Origin: an uncultured Flavobacteriales bacterium
GTDB taxonomy: Bacteria; Bacteroidota; Bacteroidia; Flavobacteriales_D; Parvicellaceae
Direction: 5' to 3'
Assembly: GCA_943788755.1 (NCBI GenBank)
Contig: CALSRM010000003.1
Location: forward strand, 1,302,001 to 1,366,000
DNA length: 64,000 nt
Shown: piece by piece, positions 18,755 through 27,082 of the stretch
Layout of the letters: the number at the start of each line of letters is the position of its first letter
Position numbering within the stretch: the first letter of the stretch is position 1
The notes under the pieces: model-generated
Seen by the model: only the letters and a program-made list of their open reading frames with translations
Told to the model about the DNA's origin: nothing
The model's database searches: none
Program-made: the position numbers and the translations under genes

Positions 18755-19951
18755 TTATTTCAAAGGAAGATCTTTGATTTTTACGTTATTCTGATACTCA
18801 GCTTTTTCAATTACCGCACCTTTTTCATTATAGGCAATGGCGATTCCATTTCTTGATCCATTTGAATAAAGGTTGTGAACTTTTAATTTACCCGAAGGAT
18901 AGTAGAATTTCCAATTTCCTTCTTTTATTCCATTTTTGTATTCACCTGTATGTGAGAGAAGACCACTTATTCTTTCGTAAAATTTAAATTCACCCGTTTC
19001 TTTATCGTTACTATAATTACCTACCTGCTTTTTTATCTTATTTGGGTAAAACACTTCCCATTTCCCATTATACATATTATTAAGGTAGGTTCCTTCATAA
19101 TATTTTTCGCCATTTGGATAAAATGTTGACCATGTACCCGTTTTTTTTCCTTTGGAATAAATTCCTGTTGTATATATTGCTAAGGAATCAGTGTCAAAAT
19201 ATTCGGTATAGCCTCCTTCGATATTGTCGTTAATATAGCTGCATTCATTCATTAAATTTCCACTCGGATAAAAGCCTTGAAACTTTCCAGTCAAAACTCC
19301 ATTTTCATAAAAACATATTTTCTGCACTGTGTCTTTGTGTTCTTTGTGATAACCAATGAATTTACCTATATATTTTCCGTTGGCTCTTTCGGCTTTTTCT
19401 TGGAGATTTCCGTTCTCATAAAATTTCTCACTGGGCCCGTTTTCAATACCTTTAACCATAGTGTATGATTGACGAAGTTTGCCGTTTTGGTAGTATCCTT
19501 TACAAATTCCGCTTGGCAAGCCATGCGAGTAATTCGTTTCTTCCATCAAGTTTCCATTCTCATGGTATATGATAACTTTGCCATGTAGAATATCATTTTT
19601 GTAATTTGAAATTTGATGAAGGCTTCCTAATGGATAGTAAGACTTTATTTCCCCTTCTAGAAAATTATTTGAAAAGAAGAGGTCTTGCTTTAGTTGCCCA
19701 TTGTAATGATTGTCAATCCATTTTCCTGTAAGCTGGTTGTTTTCGAAATTTCCTTTTTGCCAAAGGTTTCCGTTTTTGTGATAGATTAAATAGTTGCCAT
19801 TTTTGATTGTATCACCTCGTTTAATTTTCGCAAAATAAATCTCTTTTGGTTGGCTATTTTCACTGTCCCAGAAGGTCTTGATTTTTTTCTGAGCAAGAAA
19901 GAATAAGGGAGAGATGGTTATTAGTATTGTCAATAACAATTTCATTATCAC
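18755..19951 (-). CDS. Secreted MORN/YwqK-like repeat protein, second gene of the chaperone operon
   Basis: 398 residues. After a signal peptide (best read from the second ATG, at 19945) come about fourteen repeats of roughly 23 residues with the pattern 'G-x-x-x-x-Y-x-x-N-G-x-L' (YHKNGNLWQKG, YPLGSLHQISN, FYPNGEKYYEG). Such repeats stack into a long beta ribbon. The start codon overlaps the chaperone stop in an ATGA arrangement, indicating translational coupling. The neighbourhood suggests a periplasmic or surface accessory protein of the fibre system, not an antitoxin. Confidence 0.82.
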   Translation of the reverse strand: MIMKLLLTILITISPLFFLAQKKIKTFWDSENSQPKEIYFAKIKRGDTIKNGNYLIYHKNGNLWQKGNFENNQLTGKWIDNHYNGQLKQDLFFSNNFLEGEIKSYYPLGSLHQISNYKNDILHGKVIIYHENGNLMEETNYSHGLPSGICKGYYQNGKLRQSYTMVKGIENGPSEKFYENGNLQEKAERANGKYIGKFIGYHKEHKDTVQKICFYENGVLTGKFQGFYPSGNLMNECSYINDNIEGGYTEYFDTDSLAIYTTGIYSKGKKTGTWSTFYPNGEKYYEGTYLNNMYNGKWEVFYPNKIKKQVGNYSNDKETGEFKFYERISGLLSHTGEYKNGIKEGNWKFYYPSGKLKVHNLYSNGSRNGIAIAYNEKGAVIEKAEYQNNVKIKDLPLK

Positions 19952-20739
19952 AGGTCAATAAGTATTTGCGTGCCTTCTAAGTTAGTTCCGTGACCATAAT
20001 CTAAAATAGCTGCTAAAGCATGTTTCCCTGTTCCAATAACGCTTGGTAATTCAAGTGTAAAGGTTCTTTTTTCCCCTGGGTACACTCTTTCCATTTTCGA
20101 AGGAAATTTTTGCTCCTTTGCGGTTTCTAGATTTGCCAATGCAAGTTGAACCCTTGCTTCAATAATCTTGTCTCCAATATTTTCTACAGTTATAGCAAAA
20201 CTTCTAATAGAATCGCTTTCTTCCGTCTTTTCAACCAGGTTACCTATGGTAGCTTTAAATTTATCATTTGTTTTTGGAGATTGATTTACCAAAATAACGA
20301 TCCGTGGAGTAATTTTTATTCCAGTTGCTAATTCTTTGTCAATTGGGTTCTCATTCTGCTCAGAAGCTGCTTGTACATATATCATTCCCCATTTTGATGC
20401 GTTCTCACCTTTTGGCACAGTCATAATAACTGTTATTTGTCTTTCTTCGTTTGGGTTTAATTCAATGAAAGAAGGATTAACTGTAATCCAGTTTGCACAA
20501 GATCTATTAGAGGATCCAGCTGGCATTCTTTTTTTTCTCCCATCTACATCCATTTCAAAATCACCTAAATTGAACGTGAATGCTTGTTTAATGTTTGCAT
20601 GATTTCTAATAGTTACTGTTGATTGCTGAATTTCTCCAGGGTTAGTGCTGTAATTTAATACGACTGGAGCCACTTCAAAATCTTGTGCATTAACAAAGGT
20701 GATTCCAAATAAAAAAATAAAGAAGAATGAAAATCTCAT
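19948..20739 (-). CDS. PapD-like periplasmic chaperone
   Basis: 263 residues from the ATG at 20739; the start is fixed by a signal peptide (MRFSFFFIFLFGITFVNAQ) and by a promoter just upstream. Two Ig-like domains follow. Domain 1 shows the fimbrial-chaperone plan: APVVLNYSTNPGEIQQSTVTI, NWITVNPSFIELNPNEERQI and then KWGMIYVQ. Domain 2 ends in GTGKHALAAILDYG. PapD-type chaperones hold fibre subunits in the periplasm by donating a strand. It is transcribed divergently from two pilin-like genes and a giant outer-membrane protein gene, as expected for a chaperone/usher-like system. The family assignment is by pattern only; a general Ig-like envelope protein is the alternative. Confidence 0.72.
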   Translation of the reverse strand: MRFSFFFIFLFGITFVNAQDFEVAPVVLNYSTNPGEIQQSTVTIRNHANIKQAFTFNLGDFEMDVDGRKKRMPAGSSNRSCANWITVNPSFIELNPNEERQITVIMTVPKGENASKWGMIYVQAASEQNENPIDKELATGIKITPRIVILVNQSPKTNDKFKATIGNLVEKTEESDSIRSFAITVENIGDKIIEARVQLALANLETAKEQKFPSKMERVYPGEKRTFTLELPSVIGTGKHALAAILDYGHGTNLEGTQILIDL

Positions 20740-20754
20740 AAGATTGGTTTTGTA

Positions 20755-20784
20755 CAAAAATAACAATTGTTAAACAAAAAACAA
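20755..20784 (-). promoter_or_regulatory. Promoter of the chaperone operon (-33 TTG, -7 TATTTTTG)
   Basis: On the minus strand a TTG (20782-20784) is separated by 19 bases from TATTTTTG (20755-20762). This fits the Bacteroidota TTG-N17-23-TAnnTTTG promoter well. The predicted transcript would begin near 20748, leaving a leader of about nine bases before the ATG at 20739. Confidence 0.6.
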
Positions 20785-20959: not shown

Positions 20960-21628
20960 ATGAAAAAGCTCACTTTTTTGTTGGCAGGTTTCCTATTGTA
21001 CGGAACAACTTCTAACGCACAAGCTGTAAGGGATAGAAATGTTATTCCTTTAGCAGTAAACCTAAATCAAGTATTGAGAATGTCAATTACTGATGGAGGA
21101 AATATTGAATTTACTTTTAACAGTATTGATGACTATCGTTTTGGTCTTTCTGGTGATGCAGCTACCTCTTTGTCTGCCAATCCTGCAACTTCTGATCCGA
21201 TGTATGTTTCTAACTTTATCATCGCATCTTCTACTAGATGGGAATTAAGTTATGGATCGGAAGAAGCTACTTTTATAGGGACTGATAATCCAGCTAATAC
21301 ATTAACTTTGGATAATGTAGGTTTTTCATTGGTAGCGAATACAATACATCAATTTGGTACTGAGATAACATCGGTTCCAACAGTTGACGGAGCAGAGGTT
21401 TCTGCTTTAGAACAATTTCCTGTTGTATTAATCACAGATAATGGAGATCCTTTGTCTAGTGCAGGTGATGTTTTGGATAATGATTTTACAATGACATGGA
21501 GAGCAGGTACTGCTGAAGCTGGTGCTGCACCAGCTCAAATGAATACTGTTGTTCTTTTGGAGCAAAGTCCATCTCCAGCACCGGATAGATATATTACTAA
21601 TGTGTTGTTTGAATTAGCGTCTTTATAG
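20960..21628 (+). CDS. Secreted pilin-like subunit A
   Basis: 222 residues with a signal peptide (MKKLTFLLAGFLLYGTTSNAQ) and no cysteine. The mature protein is beta-rich and acidic, with the segments NIEFTFNSIDDYRFGLS (about residue 50) and RWELSYGS (about 95). The 182-residue protein encoded next shows matching segments (HIEFNFNSLDKYNTGIT and GWHLDFQT), so the two are paralogues. No T9SS sorting domain is present. Size, export, pairing, the divergent chaperone and the hairpin after the gene all resemble a major pilin of chaperone/usher operons. I do not recognise a named family. Confidence 0.68.
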   Translation: MKKLTFLLAGFLLYGTTSNAQAVRDRNVIPLAVNLNQVLRMSITDGGNIEFTFNSIDDYRFGLSGDAATSLSANPATSDPMYVSNFIIASSTRWELSYGSEEATFIGTDNPANTLTLDNVGFSLVANTIHQFGTEITSVPTVDGAEVSALEQFPVVLITDNGDPLSSAGDVLDNDFTMTWRAGTAEAGAAPAQMNTVVLLEQSPSPAPDRYITNVLFELASL

Positions 21629-21732: not shown

Positions 21733-22281
21733 ATGATTAATTCTTCTAAATGTCTTCTGTTATTAGGTTGTTTAATGTTTCATTTGCAGCAATTATCGGC
21801 ACAAGATAATGTTGCTCGTTTAACTACAATAATAGGTTCACATATAGAGTTTAATTTTAATTCACTAGATAAATATAATACTGGAATTACTGTCACAAAT
21901 GGAACAACTATTGGTATAACGATGTCAGAGATTGCTCCAGCCGTATTAACGGGCTGGCATTTAGATTTTCAAACTTGGATGGGACAGCCAAATATTGATG
22001 GAGCTGTAGGGAATACTTTACCTCTCAACACTATACAAATAGAAGCGACCGATGCAAATGGGAATCTAGCAGCTGCAGTTTTTAATGGATTACAAGATTT
22101 AGCTGTTTCTCCTGGAAACACTTTAATGTCAACTACGGATTTAGCCCATAGACCAGCAGATGCAAATACGCATCAAATTAACCTATCCTATGAATGTGGG
22201 ATAGCAAATGGTTCATTGTTAGGGCAATCTTCTGACTATTATACTGTTGAGGTAGAAGTGATATTAATTCCTGATTTCTAA
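21733..22281 (+). CDS. Secreted pilin-like subunit B
   Basis: 182 residues with a signal peptide (ending about LQQLSAQ at residue 23). The segments IEFNFNSLDKYNTGIT and TGWHLDFQTWMGQP match the neighbouring subunit A in order and spacing. The protein ends in a beta-like DYYTVEVEVILIPDF, reminiscent of the C-terminal strand of pilins. It follows the hairpin after subunit A and lies 17 bases before the usher-like gene. By analogy it could be a minor, tip or anchor subunit; that is inference. Confidence 0.65.
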   Translation: MINSSKCLLLLGCLMFHLQQLSAQDNVARLTTIIGSHIEFNFNSLDKYNTGITVTNGTTIGITMSEIAPAVLTGWHLDFQTWMGQPNIDGAVGNTLPLNTIQIEATDANGNLAAAVFNGLQDLAVSPGNTLMSTTDLAHRPADANTHQINLSYECGIANGSLLGQSSDYYTVEVEVILIPDF

Positions 22282-22298: not shown

Positions 22299-25200
22299 AT
22301 GGATAAAAAAAGATATTTCTTTTTTATAGTATTGCTAGTTTTTGGAATGTTTGGGTATTCTCAAGCACCAGACTCATTAGGCTTGATTAGTGATAGTGTT
22401 AGCGTTGTTGATACTATGAGTAATGAAGCAGATAATGTTATGGATGATGTAATTTCCATTGATTCTGCAAAATTCAAAAAGATTCATATAGAGTTTATCA
22501 AAAAGAAGGTTGTGCAATCTGCAGACTCTCTCTATTTTAATATTTGTAAAATAACGAATACGACTTCTGAGGTTTATAAAGGAAACTTTGAAGTTAGAGC
22601 TCCAGCTGGCTGGAACCTCATTGGAGATCCTTCATCTGGAATCGTTTTGGCGGCAGGTGAAACTAAGATATTTCCCATTAGAATGTCTATGCCTGTTAAT
22701 GCAGTTGGGGGAATTGCTTACGTTTTAGATGTGTCATTTACAGCAAAAGATGGCATGTTTTCAGGGGTGTCTTACATTAAAATCCCGTTAAAAAGTGATT
22801 GGGATATGCGTGTAGAAAAGAATAGTTATTATTTTAATGAATATTTCGATGACATTCAGTTCAACATATATATATCTAATAAAGGTAATGCTGAAGAATT
22901 AGTAAAACTCAAATTCGAGATTGGCAAACTACTAATTATAGATGAGATAATGGAGGAAGAAATATATACGCAAATCCCGCCAAATACAGACACCATATTT
23001 ACGTATTCAGTTCGCAGAAGTAAGTTAAATGAAGAACAGAAGCATTTGTATAAGCAAATGTGGAATGAATCAATGGTTAATGTTACCGCATTATCAGGAA
23101 TTAAAAAAAGAGTAAGAGAGTCTATTCGATTTGTAGATTTAGATAATGAATATATTCATGAAAGACAAGAGCATGCTTCTCCTTTAAATGCTGATTTCTC
23201 AATATTCAATTTACTTTCATCTGCCAAACCAAGAATGAATATGATGTTGTTTGGAGAGTTGTTGTTCAATGGAGATCATGATTTAGGTTATGTATTCCAA
23301 GGAAGGAATTTATTTTATAATGCTAATTCTTTACCTAACTATTTTAATAATCCAAACAATACAACATTTAGAATTCGGTATAAATGGAAAGATAAAATAA
23401 AAGCCGAAATAGGAGAGGTAAGCAATTACTCTATGCACTCCATAAGAGGTTGGGGAGTAAGAGGCTCTTACCAAATAAATGATAAAGACAAGGTGAGTGT
23501 TTCTTATAATTTGGGGAAATATATGCCTACTTGGGGAATAAACGCCCGATATGACACTAAAATTAAAAAGGTAGGGCTTTATGCCTCTGGCACATACGAA
23601 GAGAATAGGTTCTTATTCTTTGATGGAATATCGACAGAATTAGGCAGTAGTTTTAGTTTATCAAAAAACCATTCCTTTCGAGCTTCAATAATGGGTACAC
23701 AGGCAGTTTATGATAAAAACCAAGGTGTTGGAACTCTTCTTGATACTACTGTTCTTGGTATGTCATATAGGTTCAGCTATAATGGTAAAGTTGATAAATT
23801 TAGATTTGGAGTTAATACCAAAAACGACCAGTTTAATTATTTAAGAATTAGACCGTCTAATACTATTTATGGATATACGCGGTTTATTATTGATCCAAAA
23901 AATAGAATAAACGCTACAGTAAATTATAATTCAATTAAATCTTCAAAAATTGTATTCAATCCATTTTTTAACGGGTCATATAATAGCCAACAAATATTTA
24001 GATTAACATTTACACATCAGTTTAATAAAACGCTAATGCTAGAAACCGGTCCTTCGGCAAGAGTATTGAACAGGGTTGTGATTGATACTTCAAGTACCAT
24101 ATCTTCAAATTTCGACAATTATTTTTACGGTTTGTATAGTTTGGTTAGAATTAAATTTAATGAATTTAATATTTTAACCCCTTCATTATCGGCAGGAGTA
24201 ACAGCTTTTAGGAATAGACTAAACACAGCTGAACAAATTAAACCACTGCCAACTGTCAATATTGGGGCTAACTTTACTTCAAGAAATTGGGGTGCTAGTT
24301 CTAGATACATTTATGGTCCAAATTTCTTCTTAACCGAAGGTTTCTTTGATTATAATCCAGCTGCTTTTGAAACAATCTATCTAAGGGCTAATATGAATAG
24401 GTATTTTTATAATCGTAAGGTAAAACTTACGGGTTACGGGACATATTATTTGAGGCTTCCAGCAAATTGGCAAAATTTTGTTGCTAGTGCCCGATTTGAT
24501 TTTCAATTACCACAGCGGTGGAATGCATACATAACTGGGAATTTATTCACAAACAGCATGGATGAAATAAATGAAGGAATTATTTCGCACAGGAGTTTTA
24601 GTTTAAATGCAGGTGTTCAGAAATCATTTGATATACCTCAACCAAGAATTAAATATTATGATTTAAATGTAGTTTGTTTCAATGATTTTAATGGTAATGG
24701 GGTAAGAGAAGATAATGAGCCATTACTTTCAAATATTAAAGTGAAGGTGTCTATGAATAGAAACATCCCGAATTTAAAAGGAATTCGTTTTGGAGAAAAA
24801 GAGTTAATTACAGATCCTGAAGGGCAACTTGGAGTAGTTGATATTCCAGAAGGTAATTATTTGTTAGAATTTGAACCACTAATGAATCTTGGTAACCTTT
24901 ATAATTCTAAGGGGGATATTCAAGAAATCTTAATGACCGAAAATATGACATTACAGATTCCTTACGTTGAAAGCTTTAAGGTAAAAGGAAGAGTTATATT
25001 AAACAGAGATGAGTATAGTAGTAATGGATTAATCAACATAGGTGGAATTAGGGTGGAAGCAAGCACGGTTGATGGTCAAGTTTTTTCTGCTCTTACTGAT
25101 AATGAAGGAAATTATTTAATTAACGTTCCACAAGCTGGATTTTACAAGATAAAAGTTAATAATATTTTTGGAGATAAATTTGAAATTGACAAAGAAGAAT

Positions 25201-25736
25201 TTTCAATTCAATTCAATGGTTTCAAAACCTTTAATGTTGATTTTACATTTTTTGAAGGGAAGCGAAAAGTTAATTTTGGTGGGAATAACTTTTTTAATTT
25301 TGGATCAGGAAGTGGTTCTGACGATTTTTCAAGTGACAATAATGTGGATGACATAGCGCCAATTAATGTTGATGAAAACCTAATGCAAAATAAAGACGAC
25401 CTTAATTTTATTATCAACGGAGTATCTGAAAGTAACATACGATCTATAACTGCAAATATCGACCCCAATAAAGTGAAATTTATGGTGGAGATTGGCGTGT
25501 ATTCTGATGTTGTTCCAGTGGAGGTAGCGAATAAAATGATAGAATTACGAGTAGTTCCAACTCCTATTGAATCTGCTGGTATAACCATTTATGCAACTCA
25601 GGTTGTTGCCACACATGATGAAGTTGTCAGACTTCACAAGAAAATTGTGGAAGTTGGTTTTACTCAAGCTCTAATTGTAGGAAGTTATAATGGGAAGGTT
25701 ATATCAGAGGCAAAAGCAATTCAGTATAAGAAATAA
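22299..25736 (+). CDS. Usher-like outer-membrane protein with Ig-like, barrel, SdrB-like and SPOR-like regions
   Basis: 1145 residues. Signal peptide 1-22. Residues about 60-280 are Ig-like with a NEW3-type pattern (APAGWNLIGDPSSGIVLAAG). Residues about 300-780 alternate polar and hydrophobic residues with many Tyr, Asn and Arg, as in an outer-membrane barrel. At about 790 a calcium-binding SdrB-like loop appears (FNDFNGNGVREDNEP), then a carboxypeptidase-like sandwich (about 890-960). An acidic Asp/Asn/Ser linker leads to a SPOR-like C-terminus from about 1058 (VKFMVEIGVYSD). Ushers also combine periplasmic domains, a large barrel and C-terminal Ig-like domains, so with the chaperone and pilin-like genes next to it I propose an assembly platform. 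Sequence homology to FimD is not evident by eye. Confidence 0.7.
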   Translation: MDKKRYFFFIVLLVFGMFGYSQAPDSLGLISDSVSVVDTMSNEADNVMDDVISIDSAKFKKIHIEFIKKKVVQSADSLYFNICKITNTTSEVYKGNFEVRAPAGWNLIGDPSSGIVLAAGETKIFPIRMSMPVNAVGGIAYVLDVSFTAKDGMFSGVSYIKIPLKSDWDMRVEKNSYYFNEYFDDIQFNIYISNKGNAEELVKLKFEIGKLLIIDEIMEEEIYTQIPPNTDTIFTYSVRRSKLNEEQKHLYKQMWNESMVNVTALSGIKKRVRESIRFVDLDNEYIHERQEHASPLNADFSIFNLLSSAKPRMNMMLFGELLFNGDHDLGYVFQGRNLFYNANSLPNYFNNPNNTTFRIRYKWKDKIKAEIGEVSNYSMHSIRGWGVRGSYQINDKDKVSVSYNLGKYMPTWGINARYDTKIKKVGLYASGTYEENRFLFFDGISTELGSSFSLSKNHSFRASIMGTQAVYDKNQGVGTLLDTTVLGMSYRFSYNGKVDKFRFGVNTKNDQFNYLRIRPSNTIYGYTRFIIDPKNRINATVNYNSIKSSKIVFNPFFNGSYNSQQIFRLTFTHQFNKTLMLETGPSARVLNRVVIDTSSTISSNFDNYFYGLYSLVRIKFNEFNILTPSLSAGVTAFRNRLNTAEQIKPLPTVNIGANFTSRNWGASSRYIYGPNFFLTEGFFDYNPAAFETIYLRANMNRYFYNRKVKLTGYGTYYLRLPANWQNFVASARFDFQLPQRWNAYITGNLFTNSMDEINEGIISHRSFSLNAGVQKSFDIPQPRIKYYDLNVVCFNDFNGNGVREDNEPLLSNIKVKVSMNRNIPNLKGIRFGEKELITDPEGQLGVVDIPEGNYLLEFEPLMNLGNLYNSKGDIQEILMTENMTLQIPYVESFKVKGRVILNRDEYSSNGLINIGGIRVEASTVDGQVFSALTDNEGNYLINVPQAGFYKIKVNNIFGDKFEIDKEEFSIQFNGFKTFNVDFTFFEGKRKVNFGGNNFFNFGSGSGSDDFSSDNNVDDIAPINVDENLMQNKDDLNFIINGVSESNIRSITANIDPNKVKFMVEIGVYSDVVPVEVANKMIELRVVPTPIESAGITIYATQVVATHDEVVRLHKKIVEVGFTQALIVGSYNGKVISEAKAIQYKK

Positions 25737-25753: not shown

Positions 25754-25794
25754 CAACAAAAAAAAGACCGCTAAGTAGCGGTCTTTTTTTGTTG
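25754..25794 (+). terminator. Strong hairpin terminator after the usher-like gene
   Basis: GACCGCT pairs with AGCGGTC around an AAGT loop, extended by A8/T7 runs and by CAAC/GTTG. It ends the subunit/usher transcript. Confidence 0.85.
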
Positions 25795-25810
25795 AAATAT
25801 ATAAATTTTA

Positions 25811-26040
25811 CTATTCAATAATTATTTTTTGTGCAGTGGTTGTAAGTCCATCAACAATATTAATGTAGTACAATCCACTAGCAATATCTAAATTATAAAT
25901 AAGGGGAACCTAAATCGTAGTTAAATTCGTTATCTATAATATTTACGTCTTCTTTGGAAGCAATTTTTCTTGTAATACCTACAATTGTGATTTTGTGTTC
26001 TCCAGCTTAAATGTCATCTAGGTTAATTAAGAACCTTTTC
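25811..26040 (-). pseudogene. Relic of a T9SS-exported protein (C-terminal end only)
   Basis: On the minus strand, 25811-25900 encodes the typical end of a T9SS type A sorting domain: NLDIASGLYYINIVDGLTTT, then AQKIIIE and a stop. Upstream (about 25900-26030), in another frame and with an internal stop, LDDI-stop-AGEHKITIVGITRKI and EDVNIIDNEF look like an Ig-like domain. There is no start, and most of the protein is missing. It lies directly behind the terminator of the usher-like gene and accounts for most of the 376-base gap before the next gene. Confidence 0.65.
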
Positions 26041-26060
26041 TTTCTTCAATTTTAAGACAT

Positions 26061-26100
26061 AAAAAAGGGCAATTTTCAATAAGAAAACCGCCCATTTTGT
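26061..26100. terminator. Hairpin terminator after the secreted T9SS protein gene
   Basis: GGGC and TTTTC pair with GAAAA and GCCC around AATAA (two mismatched bases), flanked by A-rich and T-rich ends. It would end minus-strand transcription of the gene at 26114-27082. Confidence 0.6.
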
Positions 26101-26113
26101 TTAAATCAAAGCA

Positions 26114-27082
26114 CTATTTGATGATCAATCTTTTCGTTGCTTTCTGTCCATTAACTGAAACTTCAACTAAGTATATACCTGATGGATAATCAGTCGTATT
26201 TAAATTAATAACAGAAGATGTAGAAAGTATACCGTAGTTTTTAGTCGCTACTTCTTTTCCTAGTAAATCTAATACGCTAACAGCAACTTCTGATTCGTTA
26301 TCAAGAGAAACCTCGATAGAAGCAGATGTAGTTGCAGGGTTAGGAAATACAGTAAATACAGTAAATGAAGATGTATTATTCAACTCATCAAGACCAACTC
26401 CAGTCCAATCATTTATTTCAACATCGTCAATATAAAAATTAGATGTTATTTCTGCACCACCAGTACTTGCATATCCAACTCCGAAAATATCTACAGAGCC
26501 AAATCCAGATGCTGCTCCCCAGTTTCCATTGTTTACTGCAGTACCATTAATTGAAAGGCTAAAAGTAGATGCATAAAGATTAATCATTACACTTACAGCA
26601 TTCCATCCGTCCATGCTATAATTAAATGTACTATCATTATTCTGAGCATTGGTAATAAATCCGGTCCCATCTGCATTGAAAAAGAAATCTCCTCCATATT
26701 GGTAGTTAAGGCCATCTGGAGCCCATGTTCCTCCTAGATTGAAGTAACCCGAAGATCCAGAAGCAACATAAATTGCACAACTGTATTCATAAACTCCAGT
26801 TGTATACGTTTGCTGTGTTGCTAAAACCATATCATGAAGATAGTTTCCTTGCCCCGGCCCTGTGTTATAGACATTCATTGAATTAGTACCACTATTTGCT
26901 TGTTCTGCACTAACAAATGCATCTTCGGCTGTTGTTCCTCCCCACGTTTCCCATAGTCCTGAACTCTCTGATGCCACTGTATTTCCCGCAGTGTAGCTAT
27001 CAAAGTTGTCTGATAGAATGTTTGTTTGTGCCATTAAAATAGTTGGAGCAATTAGTAATGTTGAAAGTAGAATTCTTTTCAT
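26114..27082 (-). CDS. Secreted T9SS cargo with lectin/LamG-like domain
   Basis: 322 residues. A signal peptide (MKRILLSTLLIAPTILMAQ) is followed by a jelly-roll-type domain (about 22-225; SDNFDSYTAGNTVASES near its start, GYFNLGGTWAPDG inside). A linker leads to a T9SS type A sorting domain (about 245-322): VFPNPATTSASIEVSL, SVLDLLGKEVATKNYG, YPSGIYLVEVSVNGQ and KRLIIK. It is therefore exported through the type IX system and probably attached to or released from the cell surface. The domain type suggests carbohydrate or protein binding; no catalytic residues are recognised. Confidence 0.85.
   Translation of the reverse strand: MKRILLSTLLIAPTILMAQTNILSDNFDSYTAGNTVASESSGLWETWGGTTAEDAFVSAEQANSGTNSMNVYNTGPGQGNYLHDMVLATQQTYTTGVYEYSCAIYVASGSSGYFNLGGTWAPDGLNYQYGGDFFFNADGTGFITNAQNNDSTFNYSMDGWNAVSVMINLYASTFSLSINGTAVNNGNWGAASGFGSVDIFGVGYASTGGAEITSNFYIDDVEINDWTGVGLDELNNTSSFTVFTVFPNPATTSASIEVSLDNESEVAVSVLDLLGKEVATKNYGILSTSSVINLNTTDYPSGIYLVEVSVNGQKATKRLIIK

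Follow-up and report, generated by a model that had tools for sequence, protein, structure and literature searches.

Chaperone–usher pili have been studied mainly in Proteobacteria, where ushers such as FimD and PapC, which go with a PapD-fold chaperone and pilins, have a large outer-membrane barrel, classically of 24 strands, followed by two C-terminal sandwiches; to our knowledge, the proteobacterial usher itself is not tied to the cell wall. Here, we analysed 64,000 nucleotides of an uncultured Flavobacteriales bacterium (contig CALSRM010000003.1, positions 1,302,001 to 1,366,000; hereafter, the window), in which a 1145-residue protein (22299–25736, + strand) is encoded together with a PapD-fold chaperone and two pilins and is predicted to have the same succession of barrel and sandwiches. 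It differs from FimD and PapC in lacking a plug and a match to the Pfam Usher family PF00577, and in having two immunoglobulin (Ig)-like domains before the barrel, 26 predicted barrel strands and a SPOR tail. We predict that this protein is very likely the usher, that is, the outer-membrane assembly platform, of a chaperone–usher-like pilus of Bacteroidota.

Other described systems also share features with the locus. The chaperone model lies near CfaA and CsuC of the alternative and archaic CFA/I and Csu systems, and two-domain tip-like proteins in distant loci recall CsuE, the two-domain tip protein of Csu; none of the Pfam fimbrial families, however, covers the pilins of the window, nor did sequence comparison match them to chains of CsuA/B or CfaB. 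Type V (FimA/Mfa1) pili of Bacteroidales are strand-exchange fibres from the same phylum, but we know of no chaperone or usher in their pathway, and the pilins of the window have no sequence match to solved Mfa/FimA chains. TLP-1 and TLP-2 (PDB entries 9ikj and 9ikk), compared here by entry names, chain counts and alignments, are homologues of both pilins, N-terminal extension included. These entries show that a related filament has already been solved by others, and the TLP work may already describe both the filament and its locus. Among the titles listed by our literature searches, none dealt with a chaperone–usher system of Bacteroidota and none with 9ikj or 9ikk; SPOR-bearing ushers were not searched for. 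One survey states that it did not cover chaperone–usher systems (PMC4793230).

A pilus locus with an usher-like last gene

The usher-like gene, which opens with ATG and is present as one copy in the 3.17-Mb genome, comes last in a pilus locus, with a divergent chaperone gene (19948–20766, − strand) and the genes of pilin A (20960–21628) and pilin B (21733–22281) upstream on its own strand, the latter ending 17 bases before it. The first-pass annotation had treated the protein as an isolated, odd fusion of domains; this reading is ruled out by the conserved chaperone and pilin genes that surround it. In 21 loci selected for holding the usher (the window and L078–L097), a chaperone lies in the same stretch in 18 and a pilin in 20. 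Among the three loci without a chaperone, L092 starts at the edge of its contig, and the contigs of L094 and L095 measure less than 7 kb; the chaperone of the genome that carries L095 (G035) sits on another contig. As 17 of the 18 locus chaperones went into the chaperone profile, these counts show adjacency and not independent discovery. Across the 39 genomes of family f1, the usher body was found in 11, the chaperone in 12 and a pilin in 11, with all three in 10 genomes and none in 27 (Fisher p 7e-9 for usher versus chaperone, uncorrected for kinship). Two genomes depart from this pattern: G014 is 63% complete, and both its usher and its chaperone lie at contig ends; in G033, the contig stops immediately after pilin B.

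The chaperone is listed as a 272-residue protein starting from TTG, although translation more likely begins at an ATG nine codons further in (near 20739). It has a signal peptide, and its AlphaFold2 model displays a two-domain PapD-type fold with a predicted local distance difference test (pLDDT) value of 85.1 and a predicted template modelling score (pTM) of 0.74, as expected of a periplasmic chaperone adjoining pilin genes. In Foldseek, the WxLIP structure 9i1y came first (E 3.6e-12), followed, among other matches, by CfaA (2.2e-10), CsuC (9.1e-10) and FimC (9.6e-9), with Caf1M also matched, and VIA returned Z values of 12–15 across the same set (WxLIP 14.8, CfaA 14.2, FimC 13.4). Pfam agrees in part: among 17 chaperones, PapD_N scores weakly in 5 (best E 0.0025), the WxLIP domain in 10 (best E 2.2e-9) and fn3_5 in 14. 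The chaperone thus has its best structural match in the WxL/WxLIP clusters of Gram-positives, whereas Gram-positives have no outer membrane and no WxL family appears among the pilin matches listed. A link between WxL clusters and chaperone–usher systems is possible from these model-based matches.

Pilins A (222 residues) and B (182 residues) escape the standard family models. The best Pfam match of either is no better than E 0.06, and no Pfam fimbrial family was found for 28 pilin-type proteins. A profile of the pilins, in contrast to these models, matched PDB entries 9ikk (TLP-2, E 1.2e-27) and 9ikj (TLP-1, E 4.5e-26), of 16 chains each, over nearly the whole chain. Counted from the presumed mature N-terminus, which was set by a simple rule (a small residue before Gln) and not by a predictor, the conserved Phe is reached after 31–33 residues in nine A-type and after 16–20 residues in eight B-type pilins. 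One pilin of each type occurs in eight loci, where the extra stretch of the A-type comprises 11–17 residues. Known pilins have N-terminal extensions in which hydrophobic positions alternate, and the A-type extension does the same, as judged by eye. Strand exchange, in which all subunits except the tip donate a strand, predicts just such extension-bearing and extension-less pilins, and pilin B, lacking the donor-strand-like extension, is the probable tip subunit. Furthermore, a protein of 339–478 residues with a pilin-profile match is encoded in 7 of the 20 loci L078–L097 (L078–L082, L090 and L097), as well as in L145 and L146. The match falls in the C-terminal half, as computed for L097 and seen by eye for the others, in which respect the sequences of these proteins resemble two-domain tip adhesins. 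Two of the loci, L080 and L081, each carry four pilin-like genes (178–212 residues) near the chaperone, several of them nearly identical at the start, possibly reflecting variation of the pilus shaft.

The order of domains claimed in the first-pass annotation (NEW3/Ig-like, barrel, SdrB-like, carboxypeptidase-like, SPOR-like end) is supported by Pfam across the family, by profile comparisons and by an AlphaFold2 model from 27 sequences (mean pLDDT 82.4, pTM 0.56). Behind a signal peptide spanning about residues 1–21 (by eye) come a first Ig-like, NEW3-like domain, presumably periplasmic (residues 62–161, 22482–22781), and a second one drawn from the strands of the model (residues ~168–286, 22800–23156; pLDDT 79–91 by blocks of ten). 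The outer-membrane β-barrel, also anticipated, has 26 predicted strands in residues 296–779 (23184–24635), and the top-ranked solved structures in VIA were all outer-membrane barrels; together, model and VIA rule out a β-propeller or a pure Ig array for the middle region. Sandwich 1 is SdrD_B-like (residues ~786–902, 24654–25004), with an Asp/Asn-rich loop at residues ~794–808, close to the position near residue 790 that had been assigned to it; its model superimposes on SdrD 8vdk in VIA with Z 12.1 over 98 aligned residues, a root-mean-square deviation (rmsd) of 2.2 and 24% identity. Sandwich 2, which is carboxypeptidase-regulatory-like (residues ~903–986, 25005–25256), is followed by a mostly low-confidence linker (residues ~987–1031, 25257–25391; pLDDT below 50 at 989–1017) and the SPOR-type domain (residues ~1058–1145, 25470–25733). 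In the protein of the window, the Pfam matches to NEW3/NPCBM_assoc (residues 88–139, E 8.6e-4), SdrD_B (793–859, E 7.8e-5) and CarboxypepD_reg (914–954, E 6.6e-3) all lie under the curated cut-offs; at E up to 1, they recur in 11, 22 and 24, respectively, of the 27 family members, the window included.

Searched with Foldseek, the model of the protein gave FimD as the top match (E 2.9e-12), and VIA aligned its residues 291–985 to residues 136–833 of FimD 9fw9 (439 residues, Z 14.7, rmsd 9.4). It is because of this best match, the chaperone and pilin gene set and the co-occurrence of its members that we take the protein to be most likely an usher.

The SPOR-type tail and wall-binding domains of other usher-like proteins

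Known SPOR domains bind glycan lacking stem peptides, collect at septa and adopt a β-α-β-β-α-β fold. The first-pass annotation suspected such a domain at the C-terminus of the protein, and the suspicion held. Profile A8, built without the protein of the window from 13 third SPOR repeats of other proteins with SPOR-type tails, matched residues 1059–1142 with E 8.8e-10 (search of one genome), the third of six places in the genome of the window. The profile of seven usher tails aligned with A8 in hhalign at E 2.6e-10 and a probability of 96.8, and the model runs strand-helix-strand-strand-helix-strand at residues 1059–1130 (pLDDT 84–94). The tail thus shares its profile match and order of elements with SPOR domains (PF05036), but differs from the usual ones in lying under Pfam detection and in being attached to a usher-like protein.

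With the whole protein of the window as query, 27 of the 39 family genomes have another open reading frame (269–856 residues) that matches its tail alone; one such protein, L012, scores 58.4 bits with Pfam SPOR in three stretches, and the one in the genome of the window, L119, 35.9 bits. Given that the hhalign alignment reaches residue 93 of 95, the tail may be a copy taken from a SPOR-repeat protein of this type, as far as sequence comparison can suggest. The L119 protein (887 residues, positions 2811–5474 of L119, − strand, on contig C4 of the genome of the window) has barrel-like, TSP_3 and SPOR matches, and relatives with a similar end are present in most family genomes; it is a possible source of the usher tail.

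Wall-binding domains recur in more divergent usher-like proteins. Two weak matches to PF00577, in genomes G571 and G631, revealed a second type of usher-like protein, which we followed in 11 loci (L116, L117 and L136–L144): the two from the PF00577 scan, and nine picked by hand from the list of matches in the phylum, with the two places in G774 and others left out. PF00577 scores 20.1 bits in L116 (cut-off 27.1) and 15.2 bits in L140, and some proteins of this kind have weak Cu_amine_oxidN1 matches. A neighbour matches the chaperone profile in 10 of the 11 loci, L140 being the exception (E 8e-11 to 3e-15 in eight loci, 9e-13 in L116 and 2e-11 in L117), and the hhalign alignment of L116 with the window family (E 1e-7) is confined to the two sandwiches. 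Hence, what the two kinds have in common is the pair of C-terminal sandwiches and the chaperone, and it is the second kind that makes contact with the classical usher model. SPOR exceeds the Pfam cut-off in L042 (26.4 bits) and L045 (24.9), which are distant members of the window family, and in L117 (51.9) and L141 (61.1) of the second kind, where L137 has OmpA (61.1), a general wall-binding module. In all five proteins, the domain comes after the sandwiches, and L117 continues for another 400 residues. SPOR stays under the cut-off in L140 (15.2 bits) and L142 (15.3), the latter also matching A8 at E 2e-9. TPR is over the cut-off in L136 and L140 and weak in L116 and L138; Pfam found no SPOR-, OmpA- or TPR-type domain in L139, L143 and L144, and no match for the 192-residue tail of L040.

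Within the window family, more than 140 residues follow the sandwiches in 10 of the 27 members and 0–22 in the others. On a tree of 25 ushers (L040 and L042 were too short and were left out; the tailed L045 sits on a long branch), the tail requires three changes. The wall-binding domains on divergent usher-like proteins and the absence of the tail from the closest relatives give the predicted SPOR tail the look of an optional wall anchor that was acquired repeatedly. The earlier idea of a wall-bound barrel gains strength from the SPOR and OmpA domains that follow the same sandwiches elsewhere, and the tail probably grips the cell wall through its predicted peptidoglycan binding. Our confidence in such an anchor is lower than in the usher function, and two results speak against it: the protein of the window, tail included, gets no SPOR score in Pfam, and its closest relatives, from three genomes of family f8 (genus g32), have no tail.

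Two other roles for the tail were considered. It may serve for placement at bare glycan of the division site rather than for mechanical anchoring, which we deem possible but somewhat doubtful: the glycan preference and septal gathering of known SPOR domains favour it, whereas the OmpA domain that takes the same position in L137 fits anchoring better. It is unlikely, in our estimation, that the tail derives from SPOR but has lost peptidoglycan binding and remains as decoration or for stability. The silence of Pfam, the divergence of six other usher tails (26–45% identical to that of the window) and the tail-less nearest relatives would suit such a loss, but the fold order and the full-length likeness to SPOR repeats are retained, and several usher-like lineages carry SPOR or OmpA domains.

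Usher identity and a proposed mechanism

The preferred reading, that of a usher with a probable wall anchor, has to be weighed against several observations. The protein of the window has no match to PF00577 at E up to 10, which rules out a canonical usher by sequence. Throughout the phylum, none of 247 genomes has a protein above the cut-off of this family, two having weak matches, and among 14 control genomes E. coli alone has one. No plug domain is present in the model, where the longest gap between strands is 18 residues. The model itself was built from 27 alignment rows and has a pTM of 0.56. The TM-scores with FimD are low (0.22/0.32), and chains of axonemal Ig arrays occupy Foldseek ranks 2, 4 and 6. 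VIA ranked first a chain from the Mtr complex that we take to be MtrB (Z 18.2, 431 aligned), while OprC and the TonB-dependent receptors FoxA, FecA and BtuB, at Z 14–16, tie with PapC (15.4) and FimD. The predicted barrel and two C-terminal sandwiches are thus arranged as in ushers, although unrelated barrels tie with them in Z; those barrels, however, span less of the usher barrel than PapC and FimD do. As for the chaperone, VIA also pairs it with PapD-like proteins of eukaryotes (axonemal, OCRL, CEP192 and MSP; Z 11.6–13.2), so that its fold alone does not prove its function. Of the two basic residues held by the PapD cleft, the second is Arg or Lys in 11 of 17 chaperones, and the first is absent from the chaperone of the window.

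Sequence searches added little: phmmer against the PDB gave chance-like matches (best E 0.008), and a scan of the collected genome contigs with the protein of the window found no relative. A cytochrome conduit, as the Mtr match might imply, was rejected, as no cytochrome turned up among the eight neighbours scanned, although no search was aimed at cytochromes. The system appears to work like a chaperone–usher pathway yet fails two classical tests of a usher, PF00577 and the plug; therefore, we file it as a variant of the pathway and not as a plain member.

In the mechanism that we infer, pilins A and B, once in the periplasm, would stay bound to the chaperone, and the usher would receive the chaperone–pilin complexes at the Ig-like domains of its N-terminus and at its C-terminal sandwiches. 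Each next pilin would then use its N-terminal extension to displace the strand of the chaperone, and the chain of pilins would pass out through the barrel, with the extension-less pilin B leading as the tip. The computations show the gene set and how its members co-occur, the folds predicted for the chaperone and the barrel, the homology between the pilins and TLP-1/TLP-2, the two classes of pilin N-terminus and the SPOR homology; strand exchange, secretion through the barrel, the tip role of pilin B and peptidoglycan binding are the inferred elements of this scheme. The SPOR-type tail lies on a flexible linker after the periplasmic sandwiches; by binding peptidoglycan, it would either hold the platform to the wall or bring it to sites of bare glycan. 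That the protein is instead a passive outer-membrane anchor or porin, with no export gate, for surface fibres exported otherwise, for instance by the type IX secretion system (T9SS), would suit a barrel without plug or PF00577 match, a best VIA match that is no usher and the T9SS-type-ended protein next door (26114–27082), but is very improbable, as the PapD-fold chaperone, together with pilins that either carry or lack a donor-strand-like extension, points to assembly by strand exchange in the periplasm, the domain order parallels FimD, and the Pfam scan found no T9SS tail family in the two pilins of the window.

Spread and surroundings of the locus

The distribution of the locus is patchy. 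In the phylum, 12 of 390 genomes have a match of more than 150 bits to the family profile, and in the order, the body is matched at E up to 0.001 in 21 of 399 genomes, with the match in G234 confined to the SdrB-like loop. The usher of the window is closest, at 53–58% identity, to L032, L033 and L034 from another family, and the usher body is absent from three genomes of its own genus that are 82–94% complete; from these two observations, the locus seems to move between lineages. In the tree, the three f8 genomes fall (starred support) within a clade whose other rows are all from f1, a placement that suggests a transferred locus whose tail was lost or gained late. In one genome (G400, C1, 1949675–1952509; L130), the usher-like profile match runs over a single in-frame TAG stop.

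Next to the chaperone lies the gene of a MORN_2-repeat protein (18755–19951, − strand), which occurs in seven of the nine window-type chaperone stretches, the window included, and is absent from the stretches of L120 and L121. A similar MORN-repeat protein is found in 6 of the 34 other loci compared (L086–L088, L091, L096 and L122) and in none of the more distant ones. Downstream of the usher-like gene, a 14-pair stem-loop with a T run (25759–25790) resembles a terminator; it is listed on the − strand, is symmetrical and, as read from the + sequence, could be used from both sides. Because promoter- and terminator-like patterns in the window are no more numerous than in shuffled sequences (26 versus 27.4 for sigma-70-like and 2 versus 2.2 for terminator-like), only this strong stem-loop is listed. 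The Bacteroidetes-type promoter pattern occurs at 14 places in the window, one of them before the chaperone (20784, − strand), and was not used as evidence. Rfam returned nothing at gathering scores. A phage origin was rejected, as four proteins of the locus have no PHROGs match at E up to 0.01. Between the usher-like gene and the intact T9SS-tail protein lies a broken remnant (25800–26080, − strand), one frame of which, judged by eye, resembles the C-terminus of a protein exported by the T9SS.

Taken at the level of the phylum, Bacteroidota, in which PF00577 reaches its cut-off in none of the 247 genomes, still have clustered chaperones, pilins and usher-like platforms, some of the latter with wall-binding domains, and PapD chaperones are linked by fold to the WxLIP proteins of Gram-positives. 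Whether the phylum owns a large chaperone–usher branch of its own, unseen by the standard usher model, with platforms that can be plug-less and have repeatedly been given a SPOR or OmpA end tying the pilus base to the wall, is for us an evenly balanced proposition. These gene clusters make testable how an usher without a plug would be gated and how the base of a pilus would withstand pulling. If it is indeed an usher with a grip on the wall, the protein of the window would be an atypical form of a machine described chiefly in other bacteria.

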